Part shown: positions 12,346 through 64,000 of the stretch, in pieces | Layout: every line of letters starts with the position of its first letter | How positions within the stretch are numbered: the stretch's first letter is position 1 | The notes under the pieces: model-generated | The model's input: the letters and a program-made list of their open reading frames with translations, nothing else | What the model was told of the DNA's origin: nothing | Databases searched by the model: none | Position numbers and translations under genes: made by a program | Assembly: GCF_018687715.1 (NCBI RefSeq) | Contig: NC_056762.1 | Coordinates: forward strand, 33,654,864-33,718,863 | DNA: 64,000 nucleotides | From: Carya illinoinensis | Lineage: Eukaryota; Streptophyta; Magnoliopsida; Fagales; Juglandaceae | Reading direction: 5' to 3'

Positions 12346-12906
12346 GTATGGGGTCACAGCAATTGTGACGCATACACTACGTGAGACACAGCAATTACGA
12401 CACGTAGAATACATGGGGCCACAACAACTGTGGAGTATGTATTTAAGCAGTTAAAGAATAAGTTTCCGTAGAATACATGGGGCCACAACAACTGTGGAGT
12501 ATGTATTTACACGTAGAATACATGGGGCCACAACAACTGTGGAGTATGTATTTAACTACAATTGTGATGCGTAAAATACATGGGGCCACAACAACTGTGG
12601 AGTATGTATTTTTCATGTTAAGTCAAGTTTGTGTAGAATACATGGGGCCACAACAACTGTGGAGTATGTATTTAACTACAATTGTGATGCGTAAAATACA
12701 TGGGGCCACAACAACTGTGGAGTATGTATTTTTCATGTTAAGTCAAGTTTGTGTAAAATACATGAGGCCACAACAACTGTGGAGTATGTATTTTTAATGT
12801 TAAGTCAAGTTTGTGTAGAATACATGAGGCCACAACAACTGTGGAGTATGTATTTACACGTAGAATACATGGGGCCACAACAACTGTGGAGTATGTATTT
12901 TTCATG
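12346..12906 (+). repeat. Nine-copy hairpin-forming tandem array
   Basis: A 36-bp core is repeated nine times, starting at about 12408, 12472, 12517, 12575, 12637, 12695, 12757, 12819 and 12864, with a degenerate tenth copy near 12346. In each core an outer arm AATACAT pairs with ATGTATT, an inner arm CCACA pairs with TGTGG, and the loop is ACAAC. Spacers of 9-28 bp alternate between two types, giving a higher-order unit of 120 bp: 12541-12660 and 12661-12780 differ at only two bases. The open frame that runs through it (12477-12797, repeating MGPQQLWSMY) is a consequence of the repeat. Confidence 0.92.
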
Positions 12907-40400: not shown

Positions 40401-42827
40401 AGTCTCTAAAACTGCAAAACTTAATTTATTTTTTTAAAATAACATTAAAAAAGGTACATCCATTTTTATAGTAAAACAGAGTTTTTATTTTAAAAAATAA
40501 AAAATGTTAAAAAAAAGGCCATCTCATGGTGGCCAAAGCTCGACCACAATGGGAGTGACCTGATCTTGGCCATTGTGGTGGCAAGAGCTCGACCACCACA
40601 AGTCACCCAATTTGGGCTACCCTTTGTGGTTTGCAGCCACCTTTTTTTTTTTTTTTTTCATAACAGTTTTATTATTTTAAATATAAAAACTCTTTTTTAT
40701 TATAAAATATATGTATCACTTTCCAGAAATTAATTTCCTTTTTTTTTAAACAAGATTATTTTTTAAAAAGTTTCCACTTAGGCAGGTTTGGCAAGTGGGT
40801 GAGATAGAAAATTCACATCTTATCTCAGCTCATCATTATAATTTTTTCAAATTCACACAAAATATAATAAACAATTCAACTTTTTTAAATCTCAATTCAA
40901 CATTTTCAAATTCCAAAACAATAATAATATTAAAAAACAATATTTTGAACTTTCTTCTAAAACCAAAAATTCTCATCTAACTATCCAAACCTACACCAAC
41001 ATATTACTATACAGCGTGCTTTAAGTTAATATTGATGGAGGAAGAAAGAAGAAATTAACCGAGGGATCTTTTTCTAATCAACTCACACTACATACATAAA
41101 GTTAGAACAAAGAAATGTATAGGATCCTAAGTCTAAATATAACATAGCATAGGGGACGTTTACACAAAATTTTCTAAATTAAATCTCAAAATCTAGCTTA
41201 TGGCATTTCACAAATTTCCCAAAATACAAATTCTTGTGACATTTTACATTACAAGTTCAACACAGATTGGCCTATGATCTAACAGAGAATGCCAGAATGG
41301 CCTTAGGTAGAGCATATGGAGATAAATGTTGTGTGTAACTGTATTCCCCCTGGCTATCCAGACTTGAGGCATTGATGAACTGAGTAGAGCAGAAAATAAC
41401 TGAATTTTACATTGCAACAATCTAGCCTAATATTATTGTTGCATCACATTATGCAAAATTAAAAGCAGTAAAGCCTTCCAAAGCAAAACATTAGCATTTA
41501 TCAATAAGTCATTAATCATGGATGCAATACGAGTTAAAGAAAGAAAAAACAATTGATACAAGAATATAAAATTTATAAGAAATGATATTTGCAGTCGTGA
41601 AATGCGCAAAAATGCCGAGCAATCTCTTTGAAAAAAGTGAGTAAATACGGAATCCGATAAAAAACTAAATTTTTAATAGTGGACCTCACTCTTTTTTAAA
41701 AGGATTGCGCAGCACTTGCGCACTTGACGACTGTATCTAGCATTAGTCAAAACTTCTTGAGAGCACTTAGCTATACACCAGGTATATGGACATTAACGTG
41801 CATGGGAAAAAGAAAACAGACAGAACCAAAAACAAGGTAACAATTTAATGCATGGTTATTATACCTGACCCAAATATCGAACAAGAATGTTGGCCCCAAG
41901 AGACCAACCAACAGCATATAAATTAGCTTTTGGAAACCGAGTGGCAACATGCTCCACTACTTCACGCATATCTCCTAAAAACGAAGATGAATAGAACTGC
42001 ACTAACATTATAAGATCAATAGCATATACCTCGGAAGAAACTAGAAAGAAACTTCTCAGGATTCGAATGTTTTAATCTGACAAATATGTTGTCCAGGACT
42101 TCAGGCCATAGTTGGACAAGGTCAGGGCCAAAAAAGCCATGGAATAATCTTCAAGCTAAAAGTAAGTACCTGAGGAGTCGTGACAGGGCTATTTGCACAA
42201 CCTCGGCTATTGAAGACGACCACACGCCAACCTTTGCTTCTGGCTCTAACCAACATGTGCCTCACGTACGCGTCCCCACTCCCTCCGGCTAAGCCTGGCT
42301 GAGACCGTCCATTATTAGCACAGTAATACTCGGTTAGTAGGAACCGAAACCAAATAGAGCATAGAAATAGCGAGTAGAAAGGGCGGAACCAGCAAGATGA
42401 GGATCGGAGAGTCACGCGGCAAGTAACGATCGTCACCGGACACCCAATCGAGGGCGACGGTGCCGTTATCTTCGGTACGGAGGCACTCACGGCGGAGCCT
42501 GACGTCAGGGACGCACCGAAAGAAGGCGGCGAAGAGGGTCTCCACGTGGCCGTTCCATCCGATCACAGGAAACGGATTGTACGGAAGGGACAGAGTCTTG
42601 AGATCTTGGAGTATAGAGTCGCGATGTGGGCCACCGCCGACGATCTCAAGAGACGGATGAATGTACCGGCGACTCGTCATGGAGTCGGAGGTGGCGGTGC
42701 TGACGTGAACGGAGGAGATTTTGCGAGGAGTGGTTATTGTAATTGGGGAGAGTAATTGGGTTGGTTTGGCTGTGATCGGTCGAAGATGGAGGTGGCGGCA
42801 GGGGGTGAGAGGGGGAGCGCTCGCCAT
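28412..42827 (-). CDS. EMB8/ABHD-type alpha/beta hydrolase, copy 1
   Basis: The product is a predicted serine esterase/lipase of the plant embryogenesis-associated EMB8-like group (ABHD1/3 relatives); the substrate is not known. Eight exons: 42827-42390, 42298-42170, 41996-41865, 39827-39685, 39586-39489, 39234-39140, 28875-28822, 28636-28412. All introns are GT-AG and the joined frame is 437 residues. The Ser/Thr/Pro-rich first 45 residues, nearly free of acidic residues, could be a plastid transit peptide. The nucleophile elbow GWSLGA places Ser at about 221; NDPI gives the probable Asp at about 349, and GGHLGW gives His at about 378, so Asp and His are on separate small exons. PGLAGGSGD is the oxyanion region. 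Intron 6 is 10.3 kb of nested retroelements. It is a tandem duplicate of the gene at 43903-49008. No coding damage is seen, so it is probably active if the long intron splices. Confidence 0.93.
31460..31695 (+). repeat. Left LTR of the copia derivative
   Basis: Begins TATCAAAGGAAAACTGG and ends AAAACTTTGACA. It shares almost its full length with 33150-33384. The inner segment TGTATTTAAATTAAACTT has a possible TATA motif. Confidence 0.93.
32160..33082 (+). pseudogene. Copia gag fused in frame to RNase H C-terminus
   Basis: From ATG 32160 the frame shows a gag-type start ([19 protein letters not shown]), then a stop, a shift and a further stop at 32447-32449. An uninterrupted 198-residue frame then runs 32486-33082. 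Its first 90 residues are gag ([20 protein letters not shown] is typical of the UBN2/copia gag family). At about 32750 it changes without loss of frame to RNase H sequence ([19 protein letters not shown], then [19 protein letters not shown] and [11 protein letters not shown]). About 3 kb of pol is missing at the junction. Gag carries earlier stops, so a full protein from this copy is unlikely. What the fusion could do is unknown. Confidence 0.85.
33150..33384 (+). repeat. Right LTR of the copia derivative
   Basis: Starts TATCAAAGGAAAACTAGG directly after the purine tract GAGGGATGG and ends CTTTGACA, followed by the target duplication AACAG. It is one base shorter than the left LTR. Confidence 0.93.
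35740..36498. mobile_element. hAT-type MITE rich in GGTCCG repeats, 759 bp
   Basis: The termini are TAGGGGTGAG and its exact complement CTCACCCCTA, flanked by the 8-bp target duplication CTTCTAAG (35732-35739 and 36499-36506). Eight-base duplications and TAGGGGTG ends are typical of hAT. Both arms (about 35750-35895 and 36295-36490) consist of many short GGACCGGACCGG units. The middle is very AT-rich and holds a direct repeat: 85-90 bp around 35950-36040 recurs at about 36175-36262. No transposase is encoded. Removing the element restores the LINE reading frame across the site. Frames read through the GGTCCG arms are meaningless. Confidence 0.95.
38126..38931 (+). mobile_element. 5'-truncated LINE tail with 15-bp target duplications
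   Basis: The insert 38141-38916 is bounded by GATCACGGGTTCAAT (38126-38140) and GATCACAGGTTCAAT (38917-38931), one mismatch. It carries a non-LTR-type RNase H domain: a start around 38290 ([12 protein letters not shown]), a stop, then [33 protein letters not shown], and [14 protein letters not shown] ending at 38767. The 3' end is an imperfect A-rich tail (38901-38916). The protein differs clearly from the RNase H of the LINE at 37463-37879, so this is an independent insertion from another family. Confidence 0.9.
39828..41864 (-). other. Intron 3 of hydrolase copy 1, 2037 bp
   Basis: The intron is longer than its counterpart in copy 2 (900 bp). It contains a MITE (40784-40992) and a GC-richer patch with GGTGGCCAAAGCTCGACCAC and related phrases (40519-40632) that looks like a second decayed insertion. 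No coding region is recognised. Confidence 0.75.
40784..40992. mobile_element. Small MITE of the TGAGAT family
   Basis: Terminal inverted repeats AGGTTTGG and CCAAACCT close a 209-bp AT-rich insert in hydrolase intron 3. The body shares its order of motifs (ATCTCAGCTCATCAT, then AATTCACACAAAATATAATAAACAATTC, then CATCTAACTATCC, read as separate short strings) with 60181-60364 and, in the other orientation, with 51579-51775. No target duplication is certain. Confidence 0.7.
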
Positions 42828-42959
42828 GAATTGGCTGCTGTGTGTCTTTTTTGTTCTGGTTTTTTAGGCGGGAGAGAAGGTGATTGGATGATAGAGCAAT
42901 AAGAAAGCAGAAGGGAAGGATCAATGTGAAGGGACGATGATATCTCTACGGTACTTTAA

Positions 42960-46900: not shown

Positions 46901-49008
46901 CACCACCCATGTCCTCAAAGAGAAGAGCATGCCTACAGAAAAAAGTTTTCAAGTGATACTTTCCACAATCATAGAGATCAAACTGAGGTTCAAATAAGTA
47001 TCAGGACAAGATAACAAGCGGTTACTTTTTGAAAATTTTGCAGAGAGAACTTGCAAGAGCTTTGTCATAGACATTGTTAAAGCCCTTATGGAAGTCCTCG
47101 TCTGCTATGACCAAATTGAAAGGATTACACAGTGACACAGCACCAGAAAGATGGCAAGTATGAGATTCCTGCAAGTCACACATGATGAAAATATAAATGA
47201 AACACGTACAGCAGCAGATTTGAGGCAAGTGGAAAGAAGAAAACAATAAGAAGCCAGTCCAAGAGTAGCTCCTACAACCAGATGACATTACTTCTCAGCA
47301 ATGATGATGGCTTTAGCACATGTCGCATTCAAGGTCACATCAGAGTGTAATTAGCTGAAATTAAGACTCAACATCCTAACTTAACACATTCTTGTCATTC
47401 CACTCTTCAGATGCCCCAAAATTGCAGATTACTGTCCTGATAAAAAAATATGAAGCACCACTATGATAGATATGAAGTAGTGACATGATTTTCCAATCCC
47501 TAATCTCCTTATAGACTTTTCCCTTGTCGGTTAGAACCTCAAAATTGAAAAACCTTTGAAATGGAACACATATAAATGGAATAGTTCCAATTATTCGCGA
47601 CAGATCAAGTAAAACCCACCACAGCTAGAGGAGAAAAAGAACAAATTAAGACAGTGGCAAAACACAGGCTAGCCTATGATCAAGTGGAGGCTAGCCTGTG
47701 GGTAGACAATAAAAATGACTGCGTACTCCACCTGGTTAGTTAAAGTTTTAGTGAAAGCATTGATGAATTGAGTGGATGTTACGACAATCTGAAATTATTA
47801 CCATATTCAAGCTTAGCCATACAAGCTAGAATAAGATTATCCCGGAACAGGGTCCTCTGTATCATACAAAATTAAAAAGCAAAAGCCTTCCAAACCCGAA
47901 TCAACATATCACATCAACTCATAAATCATGGAAGAGAATGAGTTAGAGAAAGCAAAACACTCGATGGGAAAAAATAATCGCAAGGAGAACATTTCGCTTA
48001 ACACGACGTATAGAATCAACACGGTCAAAAAAAAAAAAAAAAAAACCCTAGTTATATGGTTATCCTACCTGACCCAAATATCGAACAAGAATGTTTGCTC
48101 CAAGAGACCAACCAACAGCATATAAATTAGCTTTTGGGTACCGAGCAGCAACATGCTCCACCACTTCACGCATATCTCCTAAAAACGAGGCCGAATAGAA
48201 CTGAACCAGGAGAGTTATAAAAATTGATCACATACCTTCAAAGAAGCCTCTCAGTATTCATATGTATAATCTGTTAAATATATTGCGTGCACCATACTTG
48301 GACAGTGCAGTGCAAAAGCCATAGAATCTCGAACCGAAAGTAATACCTGAGGAGTGGTGACAGGGCTATCGCCACAACCTCGGCTATTAAAGACGACCCC
48401 ACGCCAGCCTTTGCTTCTGGCTCGAACTAACATATGCCTCACATACGAGTCCCCGCTCCCTCCTGTTAAACCTGGCTGTAACCATCCATAAAAACCACTA
48501 AAAAGGTTAAACTCAGGATAACAACTAATTGAATTAGAGAGAAAATTGATTATGAACGGGACGGAACCAGCAAAATGAGAAGCGGAGACTCAGGCGGCAA
48601 TTGACGGTCGTCGCCGGAGACCCAATCGAGCGCCACGCAGCCGTTGTCTCGGGTGCGGAGGCACTCCCGGCGGAGCCTGACGTCGGGGAGAGACCGGAAG
48701 AACGAGGCGAAGATTGTCTCCATGTGGCAGTTCCATCCGACCATAGGAAACGGGGTGTACGGACGGGTAAGGGTCTTTAGAGCCAGAAGGACCGAGTCGT
48801 GAGCTCCGTCACCGCCGCCGGCGATGATTTCGAGCGACGGGTGATGCTCAGGGTGACTGGGCATTGCGTCGGTGGCGGCGGAGCTGACGTGTATGCCGGA
48901 GATACTGGGAGGTTTGGGTCTCATCGGGGAAGGGAAAAGTGGTTGAGTTGGTACGAACGTGATTGGTCGAAGGTGGAACAAGGGGCTGAGCGGTGTGGCT
49001 CTCGCCAT
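43903..49008 (-). CDS. EMB8/ABHD-type alpha/beta hydrolase, copy 2
   Basis: The product is the tandem paralogue of the gene at 28412-42827: a predicted serine esterase/lipase of the EMB8-like ABHD group, substrate unknown. Eight exons: 49008-48568, 48475-48347, 48200-48069, 47168-47026, 46932-46835, 46745-46651, 45408-45355, 44109-43903. Lengths of exons 2-7 (129, 132, 143, 98, 95, 54 bp) equal those of copy 1 exactly. The joined frame is 432 residues. Probable triad: Ser at about 222 in GWSLGA, Asp at about 350 in NDPI, His at about 379 in GGHLGW. PGLTGGSGD keeps the usual Thr where copy 1 has Ala. The N-terminus is Pro/Ser-rich without acidic residues and might target plastids. The C-terminal tails of the two copies diverge after LERG. 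All introns are GT-AG; intron 6 carries a LINE tail. No coding damage is seen. Confidence 0.95.
44110..45354 (-). other. Intron 7 of hydrolase copy 2, 1245 bp
   Basis: The counterpart in copy 1 is 185 bp, so about 1 kb was gained here. It contains an A tract at about 44160-44175, a GA repeat at 44751-44769, and an internal near-repeat: GAAGACTACAAGGAAGTGGTCTTGTGCAG near 44930 is echoed near 45186 (shared parts GACT-CAAGGAA and TTGTGCAG), with several further matched phrases 250 bp apart. This suggests a roughly 255-bp tandem duplication of part of the intron. No gene is seen. Confidence 0.65.
45930..46626 (+). mobile_element. 5'-truncated LINE tail in intron 6 of hydrolase copy 2
   Basis: A zf-RVT region of a plant LINE reverse transcriptase, read on the plus strand: KGKFTVRSFY, a stop near 46045, then WCCLCQKSGETADHLLLHC (Cys-x2-Cys ... 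His-x4-Cys zinc-binding pattern) and APICILWCIWSERNERLFED, ending at 46528. An AATGAAATATCTTATTACTTATC tail region and a pure A run to 46626 follow. Everything upstream in the LINE is missing, as usual for abortive reverse transcription. It is antisense to the hydrolase and absent from copy 1. I could not find the target duplication. Confidence 0.85.
47169..48068 (-). other. Intron 3 of hydrolase copy 2, 900 bp
   Basis: Ordinary AT-rich intron with an A run at about 48028-48045. Parts correspond to intron 3 of copy 1, for example the phrase AAAGCAAAAGCCTTCCAAA near 47876 against AAAAGCAGTAAAGCCTTCCAAAG near 41461. No insertion is recognised. Confidence 0.7.
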
Positions 49009-49009
49009 T

Positions 49010-50640
49010 GGTGGCCGCTTTTAGGAATAGGTGAGCGAATAGCCGCCGTTACAAGTAGTGAATTCCCGTTGCAACAGAAGTATTTGTTTTGGCGCCCGGG
49101 AATTGACTGTTTACTGCCTTCATTTTTACTACTTTTGAGACTTTTTTTTAACAATAAATATTATATTTTATTAAAACTCGTTGAGTACTGTATTGATAAA
49201 ATTAATTAAAAAATGATTTTATAATAACTTATCGGTATAAATTATACTTGGAAAATGTTTTTTGTATGTTTTTGGTGCTAATTCTTAGCATTCACACACT
49301 TCAAACCATTAACAAACGAGCTTCTTGCTGGCCAGCATCTTGACTTTAAGCACGTGTATAACTCAAATCCGTGTTTAGAGAATAGCAGGGCATAACTTTA
49401 AGCACATGTCGTGCTTGGGCTGCTAGCTAGCGGATTAGATATGTTAGGAATAATGCTATGCGTCCTATGAAGGCTACCGACAGTTAATTTTGATTTTTTA
49501 TTTATTTAATAATTAAGAAAATATTTTTTAATGATATTGTAAATTTTTTTTAAAAAATTTAAAAATATAAGAAAAATATATGAAAAAAAAAATACAATTT
49601 AAAATTTTTAAAAAATAAAAAAAAATAATAATAAAGAGCTCGAGTAGATGTAGCACGATTCATATGTTAATCATGTGTTTCCTCGTATCAAGATACAAGT
49701 CATGTTTCATGTGCTCATTTACAGTTAAAAGTTACAAGTTACAACCTCCCTAGTTTGTGAAAACAAATATTTCGCAAATCAGCTCAATTCATATTATCTC
49801 ACATATAATTATTATAATTTTTTAAAATTTTTAAATAAAAATAATATTAAAAATATATATTTTAATAATATTTTATTTAATTTTTAATTTTAATCTCAAT
49901 TTTACCTACCAACACAGATTAGGCTCGTCTAAGAAAATGTTTCTAAAAGTAGCTCCTCAATTTACAATTTGAACCACAGCAAATCTTCCATTGTTCGTTT
50001 GTGGCTAATAGCCACTGACTATCTTCTCGAGCGAGTGAAGGAAGTAGCTACGCACGGTCAATTTATTGGATTTATTGTCTTTTATTTATTTAGTTTTATA
50101 GGTTATGTTGTGGTCTTTTATTTATTTTTTTATTAAGTAAAATTACTACTTAATTTTACATACTTAAATTGATAAAAAGAAATAGGCTTTTTGGTAAGTG
50201 AAGTAGTCTCACTATTCACAAATAATTTATTCATTATTATTTATAAATAGTTTATTATTATTCATAAATTATTCATTACTATTTATTATTATTTATAGAT
50301 CATTTGAGATCACTTCAACATTAAAGGCTAAACATAATCTTAATAGTTGATGATCATCCTAACAAGCCAAAAGCATTCCCATCCCATAATACTTAGAAGT
50401 TGTCGAGGCAAATCAAGGACAGACGTGGTCTATTTTGTTACCAGGACAATATATAGGACAAAATGACAAAGAAATATTGGATTATTGATTGCGATCCACT
50501 AAGATCGAGCAAACGCTTAAATATATATATTGATGCAGTCGGTGAAATGAAACTGATTCAAAAGACAAACAGAGTACGAAATAAAAACAGTAAGAGATTG
50601 TTCAACAACAAAAGAAAATCTAGCTGCAGAATAATTATGA
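49010..50640. other. Spacer between hydrolase copy 2 and DUF538 gene
   Basis: It contains the promoter side of hydrolase copy 2 and the 3' side of the DUF538 gene. The 49760-49925 stretch (CAAATCAGCTCAATTCATATTATCTC, body AT-rich, ending AATCTCAATTTTACCTACCAAC) resembles a decayed TGAGAT-family MITE. No coding region is supportable. Confidence 0.5.
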
Positions 50641-61534: not shown

Positions 61535-61725
61535 GCTTACTATGCTGCACTATACTAGCACTATGCACTATGCATATGTCGGCCAACTCACTATGCTAGT
61601 ACTATGTTAGTACTATGTACTATGCATATGTCGGCCAACTCACTATGCTAGTACTATGCTAGCACTATGCACTATGCATATGTCGACCAACTCACTATGC
61701 TAGCACTATGCACTATGCATTTGAC
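61535..61725. repeat. Tandem array built from ACTATGC hexamer-like units
   Basis: A unit of about 50-65 bp (CACTATGCATATGTCGGCC, then AACTCACTATGCTAGTACTATG) occurs three times with a partial fourth. Each is itself composed of CTATGC/CTATG words, so it is a nested repeat. It lies just left of, and probably belongs to the LTR or 3' untranslated region of, the minus-strand copia remnant that follows. Confidence 0.85.
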
Positions 61726-61796
61726 GACTAGATAAATGTGGTCATACAATTCAAGATAGTTTATAACACTTCCCCTTTGGATGACCATATTTAAAG

Positions 61797-62300
61797 AATA
61801 TGCCTCGTTAAAACCTTGCCAAAGAAAAACCCTGTGGGAAAAAACCAATGGCGAAGGAAAAAGAGTACAGTATTCATGTATATCGCCGAGTGCTTTAGGA
61901 TTGCCTCATTAAAACCTTGCAAAGGAAAACCCAGTGGGATAAAACCTTACCGAAGGAAAAAGAGTACAATCAGTACAAGTCTTCAAGAAATTACTTCTCC
62001 TGAAAAGTGCATGATAACAGGTCTTCAAACCTCCGCATTCCAATGTTCTACATAATCTTCTTAAATCTTGCAGTTGGTAGTGCATGATAACAGGTCTTCA
62101 AACCTCCGCATTCCAATGTTCTGCATAATCTTCTTAAATGTTGCAGTTGGTAATGCTTTAGTGAATAAATCTGCCAGATTTTTACTTGACCGTACGTTCT
62201 TGATATCAATTTCAACTTTCTTCTCATGAATTGCAATAATCTTCTTATGTGTATCTGAAAGATAACTTGTATCTGTACATCCAACTAACTGTGGACTTGA
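61797..62300 (-). mobile_element. Ty1/copia 3' remnant with two tandem duplications
   Basis: On the minus strand 62300-62048 encodes the end of a copia RNase H: QLVGCTDTSYLSDTHKK, then a jump to VEIDIKNVRSSKNLADLFTKALP and KKIMQNIGMRRFEDL. The normal residues between these are deleted. The end of the gene is duplicated in tandem with a 73-bp period (62011-62083 and 62084-62156). To the left, a conserved non-coding block (TGCCTCGTTAAAACCTTG ... GAAGGAAAAAGAGTACA) is duplicated with a 101-bp period (61801 and 61902). The rest of pol is absent to the right. An LTR should lie to the left but I could not delimit it. Confidence 0.8.
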
Positions 62301-62502
62301 TCCATGTTGATAAAATAATCACAACTGGATCTTTCTGCTCATCACTACTCTTCTGGAGTTGTACTCTTCTGGAGTTATTGTAAATAACACAGTTAGTGGA
62401 GAATTCATTAATATTAAACCGCTAACCTTATTTTTTAATAAAAACGGTGGCCAGCCTTTTAAGATCAGACAAGCACCGCAGATTTTCAACTCCTTTGTAG
62501 GT

Positions 62503-62558
62503 GTCAGGCGTGCTGTCAGGCACCGCAGCTGTCAGGCGTGCTGTCAGACGCCGCAGAC
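62503..62558 (+). promoter_or_regulatory. Two 28-bp direct repeats upstream of a TATA box
   Basis: GTCAGGCGTGCTGTCAG followed by GCACCGCAGCT or ACGCCGCAGAC occurs twice head-to-tail, ending 65 bp before TATAAA at 62623-62628. The GC-rich repeat stands out from AT-rich surroundings and its position suggests an upstream activating element. Function is inferred from position only. Confidence 0.55.
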
Positions 62559-62622
62559 CTATGAAGCTATATTCCATCTCTTTTCTCTTGCTTCACGAGA
62601 GATGTTGTACCATAATTTTCTC

Positions 62623-62628
62623 TATAAA
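62623..62628 (+). promoter_or_regulatory. TATA box for the 62743 reading frame
   Basis: TTCTCTATAAAAGAGATA is a strong plant TATA context, 115 bp before the ATG at 62743. A start near 62655 would give a pyrimidine-rich leader of about 85 bases with no upstream ATG visible. Confidence 0.6.
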
Positions 62629-62742
62629 AGAGATATTCAGCTCATCTTCATTCGCATCTCATCTTCTTCACTTTTCTGTAATCATACTGCATTTTTACTT
62701 TGCAATCTCTTTTTGCATTCTTATCCTACAATCTCTCTCTGA

Positions 62743-63135
62743 ATGGCTCAGCAATCTTCTCAGGGTCAATATATGAGGTATTCTGCACTTCGTTCATCAG
62801 CTGTTCCTGCTTCTACCACAGGTGCTATCATGCAATATTATGATCTGACTCGTAGGTCAGATAATGAAGCTATCTATGAGCTTGTGAGTCTCGGTACCCG
62901 ATACTCATCATCCATTGTCGCATTTTCTCAGCGACTGCAATCCAGAACTTGTGGAGTTGACAATCTCCATGAGAATATTGCTATACTTCAACGACTTCTT
63001 CTGGAGTCCAACATGAAGATAGAATCAATAAAGAAAGAGAATAGGAATTTAAAATCCTTGATTAAATCTTCTTTTCGATTGCCCACCCCTTTAGATAGGG
63101 ATGCTATGCAGATTCTTGAAGAACAAGAGCGTTAA
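62743..63135 (+). CDS. 130-residue coiled-coil protein, family not recognised
   Basis: I do not recognise this protein with certainty. It starts MAQQSSQGQYMRYSALRSSA, followed by a polar region with YYDLTRRSDNEAIYELVSLG and SSSIVAFSQRL. The part from about residue 75 to 110 (ENIAILQRLLLESNMKIES, then IKKENRNLKSLI) has the heptad spacing of a coiled coil. The C-terminus is DRDAMQILEEQER. There is no signal peptide or membrane segment. It has its own TATA box, leader and a polyadenylation signal AATAAA at 63184-63189, about 50 bp past the stop. It lies next to a copia remnant that runs on the opposite strand. Options are a single-copy host gene, an accessory frame of a retroelement, or a captured pararetroviral-type gene. 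The neighbourhood favours retroelement origin; this is inference. Confidence 0.55.
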   Translation: MAQQSSQGQYMRYSALRSSAVPASTTGAIMQYYDLTRRSDNEAIYELVSLGTRYSSSIVAFSQRLQSRTCGVDNLHENIAILQRLLLESNMKIESIKKENRNLKSLIKSSFRLPTPLDRDAMQILEEQER

Positions 63136-63183
63136 AAGAATGAGGCAAAGTGTCTCAAATTTTTGTAATTCTTGCTTCAAGAT

Positions 63184-63189
63184 AATAAA
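63184..63189 (+). terminator. Polyadenylation signal after the 62743 frame
   Basis: AATAAA lies 49 bp past the stop codon and is followed by TAATATTTCACAAATATTC and a T-rich stretch (TTTGTGTTTCTATCTTTTGG), a normal plant 3' end arrangement. Confidence 0.5.
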
Positions 63190-63240
63190 ATAATATTTCA
63201 CAAATATTCATATTTGTGTTTCTATCTTTTGGTAGATGTT

Positions 63241-64000
63241 CTGTGTGCTCCCTTTTATTTCTTCTTTAATAATGCACATTTCATATCAAACCCATAATAT
63301 GAATCTGAAATACTAATTGTATTAAAAGATGGTATTTCATGACTAATAACATCATCCATCTTCCCCTTGAAGCCGCAAGGGTTTCAGATTTATATTTCAA
63401 ATATGTGCAGTTTTTATGAGCTCTTCTGGAGCCTCAATGACATTTAAATCATATATATAAACTGCAATAATAGCTTGTTTTCATTTGCGTTTGGATTGCT
63501 TTAGATCATATAAGGATCTTTGAAACTTGATAGAATACATATTTCCAGATGTATTCATATTAGAAGTTTCAGACATTTTCTATCATTCAGGGATTTTCAT
63601 ATATATATATATCATGATCCAATGATCCATATAAATATGCAGTTAATCATGCATATCCAAACTCTCGGTAACTTTCAAACTAATAAAAATCTCAATATGA
63701 TTTCAACCACTTTAAAATCATATCAATATTGTTTCTTCGAGAAACTAACTTGTGATTTCTATATCACATTTTCATATTAAAAGTTTCAGGCTTTTTATAT
63801 CATGTATATAAATATCCACTGATATTTAATAAAAATCATCTCTTTAGGTGTTTGGACTTCAAGTCCATATTTATCACATTTTACTTAGTGATATCAATTC
63901 TGCAGGAATTGAGAAACTGACTCGTGATTTATATATCACATTTTTATTTCCTTTCCATAAATACCCACTGACATTCAACAAGTATCACCTCTTTAGGTGT
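63241..64000. repeat. Retroelement-like non-coding DNA with spaced direct repeats
   Basis: Two blocks repeat at a spacing of about 168 bp. GAGAAACTAACTTGTGATTTC with ATATCACATTTT near 63739 recurs as GAGAAACTGACTCGTGATTT with ATATCACATTTT near 63910. ATATCCACTGATATTTAA with ATCTCTTTAGGTGT near 63812 recurs as ATACCCACTGACATTCAA with ACCTCTTTAGGTGT at the window edge. No reading frame of note. It appears to continue beyond the window. Confidence 0.6.

Follow-up and report, generated by a model that had tools for sequence, protein, structure and literature searches.

Here, we analysed a DNA stretch of 64,000 nucleotides (the window) and found that an open reading frame (ORF) of 130 codons in it belongs to a real, unnamed family of small rod-shaped plant proteins. 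In the best explanation, a plausible one to which we assign a probability of about 50%, the ORF is one decayed member of a dispersed family of plant genes, which would constitute an accessory gene, antisense within an LTR retrotransposon and equipped with its own TATA promoter; an inserted cassette fits the position of the ORF between reverse transcriptase-like and RNase H-like pieces equally well. The family itself, the C-terminal end shared by its members and the helix are supported by computation, and selection on the family is likely. We consider the family interesting and the copy in the window probably dead. The coding unit consists of the following features:

62499–62526 and 62527–62554, + strand: two tandem GC-rich direct units of 28 bp (repeat search, 89% identity)
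62623–62628, + strand: TATAAA within CTATAAAAG, a putative core promoter
62655–62742, + strand: putative pyrimidine-rich leader (75% C+T, no ATG) with a putative start of transcription
62743–63135, + strand: truncated ORF of the coiled-coil family, recognised by homology (130 codons, stop codon 63133–63135)
63136–63168, + strand: remainder of the family C-terminus, ten in-frame codons followed by a stop (alignment of relatives to 63165)
63184–63189, + strand: AATAAA, a possible polyadenylation signal and a frequent hexamer in AT-rich DNA

The original prediction had proposed a search for the encoded protein elsewhere, and copies were indeed found. Searching with the 130 residues of the window protein yielded 9 proteins, profile searches with the growing alignment yielded 25 and then 26, and all searches combined gave at least 28 different related proteins, a lower bound since the profile searches scored the best ~8000 candidates (those with most shared words). 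Scans of genome contigs confirmed no relative. The nearest relative is 94% identical to the window protein; among the 15 relatives compared, the most distant one shares 42% identity and 14 lie at 42–74%. Pecan, Carya illinoinensis (Juglandaceae), is the source of three annotated relatives. Their locus tags hint at chromosomes 15, 7 and 10 and, being of two series, probably stem from two assemblies. In two of these pecan gene models the protein starts only at an internal position, and the N-terminus of the third is unrelated, a kind of start that we would regard as common for transposon ORFs. A tree was calculated from the window protein and 20 of the 28 relatives, with eight short, divergent or leader-fused rows excluded. 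In this tree, the window protein pairs with relative P0001 (100/98) and the pecan proteins are found in two clades; the position of P0023, which has a long branch, is uncertain. Three members, P0019, P0025 and P0028, are filed as Streptomyces plicatus and S. clavifer; their contigs measure 1013, 673 and 758 bases and probably represent plant DNA contaminating bacterial assemblies. The C-terminus of P0018 reads RSEERRVGKECR, which we take to be a translated Illumina adapter, so that its contig would be a short-read assembly, perhaps of RNA.

As predicted, the protein could not be assigned to a known family: no Pfam match above the cut-off was obtained for the window protein. When 18 members were compared with Pfam at E ≤ 0.1, 40 families were matched. 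The 25 of these 40 that are listed include many coiled-coil types; among them, RM44_endonuclease is the most widely shared (4 of the 18 members), HAP1_N has the lowest E value (3 of the 18, best 0.00037, cut-off not shown) and no family occurs in more than four members. Sequence comparison with the PDB returned two matches to RALF-like 4 with E values of 0.78 and 1.3, which we took as chance. In the literature, no description of the family was found in titles and beginnings of abstracts, and no occurrence of five family peptide motifs was found either.

Full-length family members comprise 142–148 residues. A disordered N-terminal part of ~40 residues is followed by a conserved block (consensus DAIYELVSLGTRYSSSIVAFSQRLQ) and an uninterrupted helix of ~70 residues with a heptad pattern. 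A brief interruption separates this helix from a second one, and the sequence ends in LKFL or LKFM. An AlphaFold2 model of P0001, computed with 18 aligned rows, reached a mean pLDDT of 76.9 and a pTM of only 0.39. Residues 1–40 of this model mostly stay below a pLDDT of 50, the helix spanning residues 46–116 shows block means mostly of 97–99, and the second helix extends over residues 122–145. Hydrophobicity along helix 46–116 peaks at a period of 104 degrees, compared to 103 degrees for a heptad, and 8 of 2000 shuffled sequences reached the observed value (52 of 2000 for residues 70–116). The second helix displays no heptad-like period, with 838 of 2000 shuffles reaching the observed value. 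The long predicted helix 46–116 with its heptad-like hydrophobic period bears out the earlier proposal of a coiled-coil protein, for which an oligomeric state is predicted at most. A comparison with solved structures by fold gave no match at E ≤ 10, and a comparison with viral folds gave a single match at this threshold; the absence of fold matches is common for a bare rod.

The predicted ATG frame of 130 residues was confirmed at 62743–63135, and its description as clean, free of stops and part of a complete unit had to be revised. Using tblastn, 27 of the 28 relatives matched the region at E ≤ 1e-5, the exception being P0028, a fragment. Nineteen of these 27 align past the stop codon at 63133–63135 to one common end at 63165, directly after which an in-frame stop follows (63166–63168); the remaining eight, which are fragments or have divergent ends, end before the window stop. 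Because 19 relatives run through the stop, the window protein lacks the ~11 C-terminal residues of the family. An intact gene at this locus is ruled out by the early in-frame stop. With its C-terminal end lost and degraded DNA around it, the window copy is most likely non-functional.

To what extent the family evolved under constraint was assessed for 15 of the 28 relatives, for each of which the observed substitutions were compared with neutral drift from the window codons in 150 simulations. The mean substitution score of 13 of the 15 lay above all but at most 5 of the 150 simulations, and no departure from neutrality was seen for P0001 (8 differences, 68/150) and P0017 (31/150). For ten relatives, no more than 3 of 150 simulations reached the observed share of positive-scoring changes; for the other five, 6–59 did, namely for P0001 (59), P0016 (14), P0017 (12), P0014 (11) and P0002 (6). 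Simulated sequences free of stops numbered 0–3 of 150 for the 13 relatives at 42–62% identity, 11 for P0002 and 85 for P0001. This stop test is biased towards selection because the protein collection holds open frames only and hence favours intact relatives; the substitution test is less affected. The relatives are not independent of each other, and the simulations were run without insertions or deletions and over 140 codons even for four relatives aligned over 102–107 residues. Selection on the protein is likely for the family.

The promoter-side layout was found as originally predicted: two 28-bp direct repeats (68% G+C, compared to 35% in the whole window), a TATAAA box, a stretch from 62620 to 62742 with zero ATG and a nearby AATAAA. 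Taken singly, the layout features (hexamers, ATG frame) are weak evidence; both hexamers are common in the AT-rich window, the + strand of which contains 115 AATAAA and 79 TATAAA. The relative P0006 is a protein whose start lies far upstream of the position of the ORF. Its residues 12–78 match 62540–62740 (58 of 67 identical, 87%). The matching frame differs from the one used by the window ORF, and the DNA with TATA box and leader therefore recurs in the P0006 copy, for which the listed protein reads continuously from the leader region into the family protein. Among the 28 relatives found, P0006 is the one whose listed protein spans the whole promoter region, and the region is kept there, in a comparison made with this single relative and via protein only. 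Residues 2–11 of P0006 match 62481–62510 (a weak match, E 1e-4), and the jump to 62540 omits 29 bases. As about one 28-bp unit thus appears to be absent from P0006, the twin repeat is probably variable between copies. A role of the twin repeat as a fixed promoter feature is unlikely for the same reason.

On both sides of the unit, the opposite strand carries remnants that resemble parts of a retrotransposon:

63400–63579, − strand: copia reverse transcriptase-like remnant, two one-frame pieces split by a stop (translation)
62064–62318, − strand: remnant like the C-terminal part of a copia RNase H (translation)
61769–61778, − strand: purine tract, continued from 61768 downwards by TGTTATAA (printed sequence)

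We take the first two pieces to be of Ty1/copia type on the basis of their motifs, and the purine tract with the following TG may represent a polypurine tract and the beginning of the 3′ LTR that would belong to this remnant. None of six copia-like pieces was matched by Pfam; the RNase H-like remnant gave a weak match (E 0.011) to another fragment in the window that looks copia-like. The original prediction of an adjacent copia remnant in opposite orientation was correct as to orientation and has to be modified as to adjacency, since copia-like pieces lie on both sides and the unit is therefore located inside a pol remnant, provided that our reading of the motifs is right. Several repeats were observed in the surroundings. 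An exact 15-bp direct repeat, TACTCTTCTGGAGTT, lies at 62346–62360 and 62362–62376 by the presumed junction of RNase H-like remnant and unit, and the end of this remnant carries a 78-bp tandem duplication (62006–62083 and 62079–62156, 96% identical). The presumed 3′ LTR contains a tandem array of ~51-bp and shorter units (61536–61730), and at the presumed start of the reverse transcriptase remnant (63739–64000) near-repeats are found at 63739–63772 and 63911–63944 (91%) as well as at 63792–63851 and 63941–64000 (80%).

The location of the unit bears on the question of whether the family might belong to the host. The ORF could derive from a host plant gene family for a small coiled-coil protein. 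A copia-like element would have captured one copy of this family, or one copy would have been inserted into such an element, and decay would have followed. Conservation at the protein level (42–74% identity in 14 of the 15 relatives compared) and the annotation of three pecan copies as genes speak for such an origin, as does the interruption of the pol remnant by the unit, which, on our reading of the motifs, is not where antisense ORFs usually lie. However, the promoter region is kept in P0006, the sole relative of the 28 found that covers all of it, the window protein has no Pfam match above the cut-off, and the pecan models with their internal starts or unrelated N-terminus would rather be expected of transposon ORFs. 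We thus rate a host gene as rather unlikely. Even as a host gene, the family would be a conserved plant protein family lacking both a Pfam match above the cut-off and a description in the literature searched.

The compactness of the unit, its own promoter-like DNA and its opposite orientation between copia-like pieces would also fit a gene of a separate small non-autonomous mobile element, which was nested in the copia remnant and has ends that can no longer be recognised. A repeat search in 62330–63400 revealed two inverted pairs, one of 15 nt and one of 12 nt, neither of them with arms straddling the unit; neither terminal inverted repeats of at least 12 nt around the unit nor flanking direct repeats of note (≥12 nt) were seen in this region. 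Against this background, a nested element appears a good deal less probable still.

Pararetroviral virion-associated proteins are small coiled-coil proteins of a size similar to that of the window protein, and a TATA promoter with leader would suit a piece of an endogenous plant pararetrovirus that codes for a protein of that type. Scans of viral contigs confirmed no relative, the single viral fold match at E ≤ 10 had an E value of 6.0, and no pararetroviral family is among the Pfam matches listed for the window protein, for P0005 and P0007 and for the six copia-like pieces, nor among the 25 of 40 Pfam families listed for 18 members. In addition, pararetroviruses have long leaders, whereas the leader here is short and free of upstream ATGs. 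A pararetroviral origin is therefore highly improbable, receiving support neither from the viral contigs nor from the viral fold search.

A chance ORF in repeat DNA has a next to negligible probability: ATG frames of at least 130 codons on either strand did occur in resampled DNA (13 of 60 sequences of 64 kb; with first-order resampling, 6 of 1000 sequences of 2.6 kb), but homology, with at least 28 relatives, a common C-terminal end and conservative substitutions, lifts this ORF above chance and refutes such an origin.

Other long frames were noticed elsewhere in the window. Two similar sets on the − strand (42122–42863 and 48251–49020) resemble duplicated hydrolase-type genes, and the frame 12462–12797 contains an in-frame tandem repeat of EYMGPQQLWSMY-like units.

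If the ORF is, as we prefer, a copy of an antisense accessory gene of an LTR retrotransposon, the following picture would emerge. The family would travel with the element, antisense to gag-pol, and would be expressed from its own TATA promoter with a short leader. In intact copies, the protein would oligomerise through its rod, and the oligomer might scaffold or regulate the element, a role that has been proposed in the literature for antisense genes of other plant elements. The window copy would then have lost its C-terminal end to the early stop in DNA that is degraded. Going further, the family might be an undescribed accessory gene, transcribed in antisense from a promoter of its own, that is borne by Ty1/copia elements of many plants and encodes a conserved coiled-coil protein needed for mobilisation or for evasion of silencing; we put this forward tentatively and consider it doubtful in this extended form. 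As the protein is small and encoded by a single ORF, its function is testable.

How does the unit compare with known systems? The elements Grande, RIRE2 and PvRetro13 are of the Gypsy type. According to one article, antisense ORFs (aORF-3R) are known in Grande (gene23), RIRE2 and PvRetro13 (ORF2), run antisense to gag-pol, are located between pol and the 3′ LTR and show no clear similarity to other proteins; gene23 of Grande is transcribed from its own promoter and encodes a nuclear protein, and no role is assigned to antisense accessory genes in LTR retrotransposons of plants (PMC7264820). The window unit would resemble an aORF-3R in being antisense to gag-pol if our reading of the copia-like pieces by their motifs (0 of 6 in Pfam) is right. 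In contrast to an aORF-3R, it lies, on the same reading of motifs, between the reverse transcriptase-like and RNase H-like pieces; since this is not the interval between pol and 3′ LTR, we did not file it as a canonical aORF-3R. Retand, another Gypsy element, carries antisense ORFs with a TRP28 domain (PF04195) in eudicots and Liliopsida (PMC11963269); together with those of Grande and RIRE2, they offer a precedent for the reading that we prefer. Here, the likeness would be that of an antisense accessory-type gene and the difference is the domain: at E ≤ 5, PF04195 does not figure among the matches listed for the window protein and for P0005 and P0007, nor is it among the 25 of 40 Pfam families listed for the 18 members. 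If the reading as a copia accessory gene is true, antisense accessory genes would not be peculiar to Gypsy elements, and with a coiled-coil family under selection that belongs to a copia-type element, the phenomenon of antisense genes would reach into the other superfamily.
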